From Sessilibacter corallicola (GTDB lineage: Bacteria > Pseudomonadota > Gammaproteobacteria > Pseudomonadales > Cellvibrionaceae), in assembly GCF_021290925.1 (NCBI RefSeq), contig NZ_JAJSLX010000002.1, positions 957,001-1,021,000 on the forward strand: a stretch of 64,000 nt of DNA, written 5' to 3'. The position numbers and the translations under genes were made by a program. Below are positions 45,718 through 49,322 of the stretch, piece after piece (position 1 is the first letter of the stretch; each line of letters opens with the position of its first letter). The notes beneath the pieces are model-generated. The model made no database searches, was not told where the DNA came from, and saw nothing but the letters and a program-made list of their open reading frames with translations.

Positions 45718-46077
45718 TTAGATTTCTAGTTTTTCTTCAACCGCTTTTAATTGCAAGCGAGCCAATGCTAAGTTCGCTTTGCTAGAGCTTAGTACGAAGT
45801 AAAGAAACAATCCGTCCAACTTTTGAGTGGGTCGGATTAGGTGGAATTGGTCAGATAGAGTAATAAGAATATCTTGAATTTCAGAACTCAAACCCAACAT
45901 TTTCATGGTTTTCATTTTCGAGCGAACAACTTCGGTGTTACCGCCAGCTGCCACGTCTAGGTCAATTCCAGTTCCTGCACCGCCAAGTAACATGCCGCTG
46001 TTGTAATCCACAACTGCTGCTGCCATTGCGCCGTCGACTTCTAGCAACTCTTTTAAAACTGTATCAATGTTTGCCAT
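45718..46077 (-). CDS. Roadblock/LC7 domain protein (first)
   Basis: 119 residues forming a single roadblock/LC7 domain: ELLEVDGAMAAAVVDYNSGMLLG at the N terminus (split around residues 12-34), a central DLDVAAGGNTEVVRSKMKTM helix, and DILITLSDQFHLIRP toward the C-terminal half. Such proteins, like MglB, act as dimeric regulators or GTPase-activating partners of small Ras-like GTPases. It is the last gene of a four-gene operon, 22 bp after a second roadblock gene. Cytosolic. Confidence 0.85.
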   Translation of the reverse strand: MANIDTVLKELLEVDGAMAAAVVDYNSGMLLGGAGTGIDLDVAAGGNTEVVRSKMKTMKMLGLSSEIQDILITLSDQFHLIRPTQKLDGLFLYFVLSSSKANLALARLQLKAVEEKLEI

Positions 46078-46099
46078 TGTTTAATTCCATCATTGGTCA

Positions 46100-46501
46100 T
46101 TAATTTGAATCTAAGAGGTTTTGGAAACCGGCTAACTGGTTTCTAAAGCTCCACAGTGCTAAACCGTGTTGAACGCCTTTGGCAAAAATTCCAAGGAGAA
46201 CATAGTCTGTTTCAGTGGTGTTAATTAGACCGAAGATAATGAGTCCGTCAGCGGTTTCGACAATTCCTCCAAGGGCGTCTTTTTTCCCACAAGTTGTCGC
46301 TATCGTCAAGCTTAACCCGGCAAAAGATGCGGCCATAGCAGATAATTGTGTCGGCTCTATTGCAGAGCCTCGGTAATTTGCGCTTGCTATTTCGTGTCCG
46401 TCGGATGAACACAGTAAAAGGCTTTCGATGTCGTCACGAGTTAATGAGGAATCATTGAGGTGAGATTTAATTTTTTCAATTAATTCTGGCGGTAGATTCA
46501 A
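46100..46501 (-). CDS. Roadblock/LC7-like protein (second)
   Basis: 133 residues. LLLCSSDGHEIAS near residue 24 and LSAMAASFAGLSLTIA near 49, followed by the GLIIFGLI and DYVLLGIFAKG strands, resemble a diverged roadblock fold. I place the start at TTG 46501, with AAGAGG upstream inside the 3' end of the GTPase gene and only 4 bp after its stop. The frame is open further upstream, but that extension overlaps the GTPase gene. It probably pairs with the other roadblock protein or with the GTPase. Confidence 0.65.
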   Translation of the reverse strand: MNLPPELIEKIKSHLNDSSLTRDDIESLLLCSSDGHEIASANYRGSAIEPTQLSAMAASFAGLSLTIATTCGKKDALGGIVETADGLIIFGLINTTETDYVLLGIFAKGVQHGLALWSFRNQLAGFQNLLDSN

Positions 46502-46505
46502 GCAA

Positions 46506-47045
46506 TTATTCCTCTTGCAGTAAAAGATCAAGCTCCGCGTTGACAATTAATGCTTCTAAAAGCAGATTAACGTCACTGGACTCTCTTGGGTCCATAAAAA
46601 AGTAAGGTAGAGCTAATTCGAAATTAAGTGAAAATTGTTGCATGGTATCGGACACGTCATCGGAATCAGTGACTCTGTTTAATCCGATTACCATTGCACC
46701 TGTGTCGGCATGAGAACGGAATGCATTAATGTAATATTCCAACTCATCTGACCAGTTGCTTTGGCTGCAGTCTAGTAACAGAATACTGCCTAAAGAGCCT
46801 TTTGCCACGATAGGCCAAATAAAACTAAAGTGGCGTTGGCCCGGAATTCCGTACAGAGCTAACTTATTGCCATCTTCTAGTGATAATTCTCCGTAGTCCA
46901 TAGCAACCGTGGTGGTTGCTTTGGAATATACCGATTTATCGTGATTTTTTGCTTCTGTTTTTACCGTGGGGATATCGCTGATTGCGGTGATAGCCGTGGT
47001 TTTACCTGCGCCCATCGGGCCTACAAATACTACTTTAATGGCCAT
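46506..47045 (-). CDS. Small Ras-like GTPase, MglA-like
   Basis: 179 residues. The P-loop GPMGAGKTTAITA is at residues 9-21, a switch region with TVAMDYGEL near 46-54, and a GIPGQRHF segment near 67-74 in place of the usual DxxGQ. The base-recognition loop reads GLNRVTD rather than the canonical NKxD, an oddity that may change nucleotide specificity. Such GTPases next to roadblock proteins act as polarity or motility switches in Myxococcus and as conservons in actinomycetes. Start overlaps the upstream gene by 11 bp. Confidence 0.8.
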   Translation of the reverse strand: MAIKVVFVGPMGAGKTTAITAISDIPTVKTEAKNHDKSVYSKATTTVAMDYGELSLEDGNKLALYGIPGQRHFSFIWPIVAKGSLGSILLLDCSQSNWSDELEYYINAFRSHADTGAMVIGLNRVTDSDDVSDTMQQFSLNFELALPYFFMDPRESSDVNLLLEALIVNAELDLLLQEE

Positions 47046-47925
47046 GAGATAATCCGAAATAAGACTGAATTTTCTTTCTTAGCCATACAAGTGTTTGCTT
47101 GTTTTGTAGTTCAGTAACACTTCCAAGTGTTGATGAGCTAATGTCTGAAGCTTTCACTGAAACGCCGCACACGTTGCAGGCATGTAAGAATGTCATAACC
47201 TGTTCGTTATCCAAACGACAGATTTTGGCTGCTTCACGAATTGAAATACTTTGCTTTGAGTATAAGGTTGCCAATTTAAAAATTTGTGGATTTGGCTCCC
47301 ATTCGCTGATCTGTGGCCAGCTGATGAGTTTATAACCTTTATCTAAAGACCAGTGTAAGCGCGCAAAACCTATCTCTTTGCGAGCCAAATTCCACAATAA
47401 TTTTTTCAAACTAATGCAGCTGCTCCAAACAAGCTTTTCTTTGATTGGAATTTCGTTTTTTTCTGTTATAGCAGATGGCGGTGTTTTTAAAATGGCATCA
47501 ATTAGATCGTGTTCATCGCCATTTTCTAAATAAACTTTTCCATTATCGCTTTTAAATCTTACTAACTTCTGATTACACAAAAGTACAGTTTCGTGAGCAC
47601 TTTTATCTTTCATTAATTCAGCAACGGCGGTTGCTGAGGAATGTTTCGCGGAAGGTTCGCATTGTTGCAGGAGTTCCATGAACTTCATAATGCGAATTGG
47701 ATATTCTAATACCAGCTCAGAGGATGAATCTGGATGTTCGCCCACCAGTACGAGCTTTGAGCCAGGGTGAAGGTCAGTATGTTGCTTGGCAAGTACGACG
47801 TCGCCGTCGATACCTTCACCAGTGTATTGCCATCCGTGTTGGGTACGTGTAGCAATTAAACGGACCTGTTTTTTTATGACGTCAATTTCATGTGGTTCGA
47901 AACCATAGCTTTTTATTGAGTACAT
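47035..47925 (-). CDS. Unrecognised first gene of the GTPase/roadblock operon
   Basis: 296 residues, no signal peptide or membrane helix. The first ~90 residues (DIDG-like block with GEGIDGDVVLAKQ and LVLEYPIRIMKFMELLQ) have the layout of a degenerate receiver domain. The C-terminal part (LKKLLWNLARKEIGFARLHW; SISIREAAKICRLDNEQVMTF) suggests a winged-helix or DUF4388-like module. I do not recognise a family. It starts the operon and overlaps the GTPase gene by 11 bp, so it probably acts with the switch, perhaps as an output or scaffold. Confidence concerns the gene being real, not its role. Confidence 0.7.
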   Translation of the reverse strand: MYSIKSYGFEPHEIDVIKKQVRLIATRTQHGWQYTGEGIDGDVVLAKQHTDLHPGSKLVLVGEHPDSSSELVLEYPIRIMKFMELLQQCEPSAKHSSATAVAELMKDKSAHETVLLCNQKLVRFKSDNGKVYLENGDEHDLIDAILKTPPSAITEKNEIPIKEKLVWSSCISLKKLLWNLARKEIGFARLHWSLDKGYKLISWPQISEWEPNPQIFKLATLYSKQSISIREAAKICRLDNEQVMTFLHACNVCGVSVKASDISSSTLGSVTELQNKQTLVWLRKKIQSYFGLSHGH

Positions 47926-49322
47926 AGTGAACGCTTCGCTATATCCGTGGTTAGAGCTAAATTCCTTAAATATATTTTAATGCTCTGGCGATATCTGGCA
48001 TCAAAATAATCCCCTGTGCGCGATAAGTCAATTATATGCAGCAAACAAATTTATTGATATGAATAAATGTAACTCAGTGTAAAAACTACACACCTTATTC
48101 ATTGGTTAGCAGTCAGTTGAAATCGAGACAGGCTGTTATAAATTTTATTGCCAATACTAAATATATAACACGTTTAGCGCTGAGACAGAATTAAATATAA
48201 AGATATTCCCGTAAATTACACTGTTGTCGTCCGATTTTTCAGAATTTCAGCGGCTATTTCTGTTGGTCTAGATTATTGATTTGTAAAGATAACGTTTTGT
48301 CTGATTTAGACAATCACATGCAGAATATGAAATAGCATAAAAATGTGAAAAATTAAGAAACTTATTTATATACAGGCTATATCCTGTTTTTCAGAGTGAA
48401 TACTAAGCACTTTATTCACATTAAAACCTTAATCTAGGTGCCAGTTCATCCGATTTTATCGAACAAAAATTGTCTGCTGATAGACTTTTTTTATCACTTG
48501 TTAACAAACGTATTGCCGGTTTGCAATAATTATACAGTTTGTAAGCGGTCTGATCGTTTGAGATAAAATAACTGCAATACCAATTTTACATTTTGGTGGC
48601 ATTATTGATCGGAGCACCTGGGTGAATTGCTGCTTTCATACTCGTCTCCGTATTTAACCCGTTTATCTCCCTCTCTGTTTAGATTGTTTAAACGCAACAG
48701 AGTTTTAGATTACGCAGTTTGTTAAAAGCATTATTAAAGCATGTAAAAAGATTCTTCTTGAATTGAAGGCGAACTTTCAGGAATTTACCGCCATTTTGCC
48801 TAAAAATTGAGTGGTGTAGGGTAAATTCTCTATCTGTATTCCTTCGATTTTGCTGCTCTGAGCCGGTTCTGCTGGAGAATTATTTTCCCGTTAAAATAAT
48901 AAATCTTTTATGATTTGTATTTTCTTTAATAAGAATAAATATTATTTCGATCGCCGCTTGCGCTATTTTGAGCTTGTTTTAGCTTCAATTCGCTTCAGTC
49001 TAAAGTAACTGTTTTTGGGCAATTATTTTTTAATGGAATCATTACGGATCATTTTTTTGGTAATTTGGGGTTAACAAAAAATAAAATTTATTTTTGTTAA
49101 CTTATTGTCTTTTTTGTCGGTTTGTTGCCTTTTTGTCGCGTTGGCCACATTCTGATTTCATCGATGAAATTTTTATAAATATTTCTTTCAGAGTCATCAT
49201 TGGTAGGGGTTGAGGATTTTTAGGTTCATTAAAATACCTTTCGCTTTTCTCGAATATCACTTTTAAATCTGGCGTTCAATGAGCTAATCTAGGCCTCCAA
49301 TTCAATCAGGTCTTTTTTATCT
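47926..49322. other. Gene-free 1.4-kb region
   Basis: Lies between two divergent genes, the GTPase operon and the benE-like gene. It is AT-rich throughout, with no open frame of note. It contains a long AT-rich palindrome at 49070-49101. Promoters for both flanking units must be here, but I cannot place them. Confidence 0.55.
49070..49101. repeat. 32-bp AT-rich palindrome
   Basis: Begins and ends with GTTAAC and is almost perfectly self-complementary, differing by one base in an A/T run. It lies 220 bp upstream of the benE-like gene. Possible operator or terminator. Confidence 0.5.

Follow-up and report, generated by a model that had tools for sequence, protein, structure and literature searches.

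MglA-type small GTPases have been divided into five groups (Wuichet & Sogaard-Andersen 2014, PMC4316618). Group 3 is almost exclusive to beta- and gammaproteobacteria and combines an MglA with a conserved protein of unknown function and one or two MglB proteins (PMC4316618). The unknown protein was predicted to have a receiver-like amino terminus and a winged-helix carboxyl terminus, and the same authors suggested for it a role in transcription control (PMC4316618). Groups 2 and 3 lack the lysine of the NKxD motif and have an unusual DAR sequence as G5, and Groups 2 to 5 carry GTPGQ in place of DxxGQ (PMC4316618). For Snodgrassella, a betaproteobacterium, the published mgl locus has an mglA of Group 3 together with mglB genes, some of them coupled to it and others orphan (PMC11112851). 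Work on an orphan roadblock protein of that organism is the only experimental study that we found besides the 2014 bioinformatic analysis, so that an earlier note on the present DNA was fair in calling such modules poorly described in gammaproteobacteria.

Here we analyze a four-gene operon (genes A to D) found in the window, the whole stretch of 64,000 nucleotides under study. The operon agrees with every point of the Group 3 description except for a T to I change in GTPGQ, and it very probably encodes a divergent Group 3 MglA switch system.

Organization of the operon and of its relatives

The earlier note had described a compact four-gene operon on the minus strand; the tightly packed block was found at the same coordinates and on the same strand (Table 1). 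Genes A and B share 11 nt, while gaps of 4 nt and 22 nt separate B from C and C from D, respectively. The AT-rich region that precedes the operon is unusually long and presumably includes its promoter. A promoter scan of the proximal part of this region (to position 48400) and a terminator scan both gave results at chance level.

Table 1. Features of the operon and its upstream region (positions in the window).
Feature	Coordinates	Strand	Description and basis
Gene A	47035..47925	-	296 aa; Group 3 partner; AlphaFold2 pLDDT 82; VIA-align Z ~10 to receivers
Gene B	46506..47045	-	179 aa; MglA-family small GTPase (GIPGQ, NRVT, DPR); Pfam/NCBIfam, family alignment
Gene C	46100..46501	-	133 aa, TTG start at 46501; roadblock/MglB-like, conserved Asp-Gly pair
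Gene D	45718..46077	-	119 aa; second roadblock/MglB-fold protein; AlphaFold2 pLDDT 88, Foldseek
Intergenic region 5' of gene A	47926..49322		1.4 kb, AT-rich (33% G+C); composition

Homologues of the four proteins were gathered from public genomes. A Group 3-type GTPase match is present in 65 of the 369 sampled genomes of the class, and a partner gene lies directly upstream of 129 of the 140 related GTPase genes that come from other genera. Scanning contigs with the window GTPase alone gave no match; the scan with the family alignment succeeded. Profiles free of sequences from the genus retrieve all four window proteins, A to D, at 4e-17, 1e-58, 5e-14 and 2e-38, respectively, the A profile being built from 130 homologues outside the genus, with the caveat that the profile first used to collect A genes was seeded partly with this genus. 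The loci of Neisseria and Snodgrassella, assigned to Group 3 in the literature, have the same A-B-x-C layout. The system is thus real and of a known kind, with an operon layout conserved among beta- and gammaproteobacteria. The claim of a novel partner fails since layout and motif deviations alike were already described in 2014.

Two other arrangements were seen among related loci. In L013, L014 and L021 the GTPase gene is followed by a gene coding for a fused ABC-ATPase/dual-specificity-phosphatase-like protein, and no roadblock genes were present within the short loci examined. Two different GTPase genes are found close together in L043, L044, L046, L050, L124 and L127, which are of Thiotrichales/Thiomargarita type and others.

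The GTPase and the roadblock proteins

Pfam (ATP_bind_1, 2.5e-10; Roc, 1.3e-6) and NCBIfam (small_GTP, 4.9e-7) identify protein B as a small GTPase, with the motifs GPMGAGKTT (G1), TTTV (G2), GIPGQ (G3), GLNRVTD (G4) and DPR (G5). All catalytic invariants of the family alignment are kept, including the P-loop, switch and xPGQ residues. Its size below 240 amino acids, the xPGQ type of G3 without Asp, the Thr in G2 where an Arg finger could stand, and a G4 (NRVT) deviating from NKxD accompanied by a DxR-type G5 are those of Group 3. In the related group G4 and G5 are mostly [V/I]T[QRK]MD and DAR. The usual G3 is GTPGQ (115 of 130 aligned homologues); its T is replaced by L, I, V or S in 15 sequences, B included, and GIPGQ occurs in just three, among them B and its counterpart in a congener. 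The earlier note was right that B is MglA-like, lacks NKxD and has GIPGQ for DxxGQ, but the unusual G3 and G4 are traits of the class and not peculiar to this gene. A PDB sequence search with B was dominated by eukaryotic Rab and Sec4 proteins, a similarity at the level of the fold that gives no family assignment; acquisition of a eukaryotic-style GTPase was considered and rejected in view of the xPGQ motif and the prokaryotic operon.

The two different roadblock/LC7 proteins announced by the earlier note were both recovered, each by its own route. C alone gives a weak match to Robl_LC7 (Pfam, 0.028), and the alignment of its homologues retrieves roadblock structures in the PDB at 2e-23. D alone has no Pfam match; its AlphaFold2 model displays roadblock topology, and the best Foldseek matches of this model are MglB of Thermus and of Myxococcus (5e-9, TM ~0.8). 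C and D together correspond to the one or two coupled MglB/roadblock genes of Group 3. A homologue of D with 59% identity is encoded in the genome of a species related to that of the published Snodgrassella locus. Equating D with the Snodgrassella orphan mglB-3 was considered and dropped, a C-type orphan found there fitting the published description better; the orphan mglB mutated in Snodgrassella thus probably codes for a C-type protein and not for a D-type one. D-type homologues are also dispersed in other genomes: up to seven are scattered in that of Stenoxybacter (G427: L107, L150, L154-L156), and in Snodgrassella two are found at a distance from the mgl operon.

The partner protein A

Single-protein scans of Pfam and NCBIfam gave no useful match for A or D. 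The AlphaFold2 model of A is composed of a receiver fold (residues 1-93), a middle beta region, a winged-helix-like part (about 190-264) and a basic carboxyl-terminal helix. Alignment of the model to known structures supports the receiver fold of residues 1-93 (VIA-align Z ~10, rmsd ~2), which Foldseek matches best to the CikA pseudo-receiver. The phosphoacceptor Asp is missing, its motif falling in a deletion, and so is helix 3. The KP lysine is also gone (YP in A), at a position with K in 26 and R in 4 of 35 aligned sequences. A therefore has the fold of a phosphorylatable receiver without the Asp after beta3 and the KP lysine, and sequence and model indicate that its amino terminus is a pseudo-receiver, predicted to be beyond phosphorylation in the canonical way. 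The window provides in this respect a divergent example of the class that points to phosphorylation-independent control. Its adjoining partner has the receiver-like amino terminus and winged-helix carboxyl terminus characteristic of Group 3; the receiver-like part had been correctly recognized in the earlier note, which was mistaken in taking the protein for an unrecognized one (PMC4316618).

The winged-helix part is deduced from the model and from one match at residues 190-264. Receivers apart, the structure that it matches best is one chain from the SEA complex of yeast (Z 9.5, 71 residues), a lead only, as winged helices are common. The third winged-helix helix, compared in 35 homologues, has a hydrophobic and acidic character, with a mean of 0.54 K/R versus 1.20 D/E. 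The last 24 residues of A have a net charge of at least +3 in 88% of 132 homologues, versus 20% of other ORFs, and these tails are mildly amphipathic (0.64 versus 0.54 in shuffles). The tail of A in the window is basic (+4) and weakly amphipathic (0.37). Basic amphipathic tails recall those that target MinD or FtsA to the membrane.

These properties bear on the role of the partner. Following the suggestion of 2014, A would be a response-regulator-like transcription factor whose binding to DNA is controlled by the GTPase and the roadblock proteins. The combination of a receiver-like part, now confirmed at the level of its fold, with a winged helix agrees with such a role, as do weak helix-turn-helix matches in Pfam of the partner encoded in a paralogous module (HTH_IclR, 0.0028; see below). 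However, the third helix, which would be the recognition helix, has the hydrophobic and acidic character described above, the receiver of the window has lost the Asp motif and the KP lysine, and the best non-receiver match of the winged helix is the SEA complex chain and not a DNA-binding protein, which makes the transcription factor an unlikely reading. Because the third helix is uncharged or acidic and the carboxyl-terminal tail strongly basic throughout the class, we rather favor, with some reserve, a function of A as a scaffold.

In a subset of partners (L026, L030 and L031 of genome G007; L016-L020, L029) a BLUF blue-light domain replaces the receiver-like amino terminus (PF04940; matches among the scanned partners reach 1.2e-22). 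The Tyr and Gln of this domain appear intact in G007 (L026, three copies), and in others Tyr is missing. Our literature search found no report joining BLUF with MglA or roadblock proteins.

Conservation and a paralogous module

The module is syntenic in the genome of a second species of the genus, where the four reading frames are intact, as in the window. Identity between the proteins of the two congeners is 61% for A, 73% for B, 71% for C and 83% for D. The genes differ at 72-87% of synonymous versus 14-27% of nonsynonymous sites; for most of them saturation of the synonymous sites prevented a dN/dS estimate. Since synonymous sites are near saturation while nonsynonymous differences are low, all four proteins are under purifying selection. 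A second, more typical A-B-C-D module, with D about 280 nt from C, is present in the same genome (G000:C2 ~261340-263650; L002, L158). Synteny, protein identity in the face of near-saturated synonymous sites and the existence of this paralogous module argue that the operon is not due to chance. An uncharacterized gene common to two genera of the family is located 3' of the module (L010 3006-3521, L011 2899-3516).

The presence of the more typical copy, the long branch of the GTPase, the altered G4 and the lost receiver features could be taken to mean that the module is a decaying paralogue that no longer switches. Against this, the four frames are intact and synteny is kept in two species, nonsynonymous differences stay at 0.14-0.27 with synonymous sites close to saturation, and B has preserved its catalytic residues, so decay is very improbable.

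Phylogenetic position of the GTPase

B shares 43-46% identity with the best members of the group and at most 32% with Group 2 references, and Group 5 references also rank behind. In a BLAST search with B, 121 group homologues outrank every Group 2 reference. A mixture-model tree, used instead of a first FastTree that mixed outgroups and long branches, places B on a long branch inside the Group 3 clade with a support of 85. As the AU test does not reject the joining of this long branch to Group 2 references (p=0.5), the assignment to Group 3 is based on gene context and similarity ranking, not on the tree. Transfer of a conservon-like (Group 2) system into a gammaproteobacterium would accord with the AU test and with the Asn in G4, loosely like NxFD, but is extremely unlikely given the absence from the four genes of a histidine kinase and of a DUF742 gene, in comparison with an annotated conservon (L142), the Group 3 identity of the partner and the BLAST ranking.

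Proposed mechanism and output

We propose that B is a GTP/GDP switch whose cycle would be set by the roadblock proteins C and D. Each of these could pair with itself or with the other, and the resulting dimers would bind B-GTP and serve as its GAP, as a scaffold or as both, a control deduced from homology to MglA/MglB. B would be wired to its dedicated partner A, a putative receptor or scaffold whose pseudo-receiver and winged-helix domain may serve as protein-protein interfaces, while its basic carboxyl-terminal helix may contact the membrane or an acidic surface. B-GTP would then act on a downstream output. A type IV pilus or surface motility output is plausible, if somewhat doubtful, because PilB and PilT are encoded in the genome and an mglB allele of Snodgrassella alters pilus-dependent motility (PMC11112851). 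Provided that the N. meningitidis strain concerned has a Group 3 module, a general pilus role is weakened by its complete mutant set, in which aggregation or twitching was lost just in mutants of pil genes and of three further genes (PMC7606547).

Going a step beyond scaffolding, we raise tentatively, as a rather unlikely idea, that the Group 3 partner is a membrane-contacting platform, not a transcription factor, made of an uncharged winged helix, a pseudo-receiver and a basic carboxyl-terminal helix and bringing roadblock dimers and a Ras-like GTPase together on the membrane or at the pole. The partner would then be an analogue, in bacteria, of GTPase platforms of the Ragulator/SEA type, one with interchangeable sensory amino termini: a receiver, a degenerate receiver or a BLUF light sensor. 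Whether the partner is a membrane-associated scaffold or binds DNA bears on the way in which these bacteria use small GTPases. The interest lies in the class and its class-wide leads, the scaffold-like partner and the interchangeable amino termini including BLUF, and not in this locus alone.

Comparison with known systems

The Myxococcus MglA/MglB/RomR polarity system, with which the earlier note compared the operon, shares with it a small GTPase, a roadblock GAP and a receiver-domain partner. The comparison is loose: Myxococcus MglA, a Group 1 protein, carries TVPGQ as well as an arginine finger of its own, and B has TTTV, without an Arg finger by the G2 Thr, and GIPGQ. We know of no homology between RomR and A. 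The actinobacterial conservon (CvnA-D, Group 2) is likewise a four-gene operon with a GTPase and a roadblock protein, a weak NKxD and a DAR-type G5, but it includes a histidine kinase and a DUF742 protein that have no counterpart in the window operon.

The closest likeness is to Group 3 (PMC4316618), through the receiver-like/winged-helix partner, the G3 without Asp, the absence of the NKxD lysine, the DxR-type G5 and the one or two MglB proteins. A species related to that of the published Snodgrassella locus (L080) shows the same A-B-x-C layout; in Snodgrassella itself, unlike in the window, extra roadblock proteins are encoded elsewhere in the genome. Particular to the present locus are the long-branch GTPase, GIPGQ and the degenerate receiver part of A, and it further differs from the usual Group 3 system by its second roadblock protein of the 119-aa D type.
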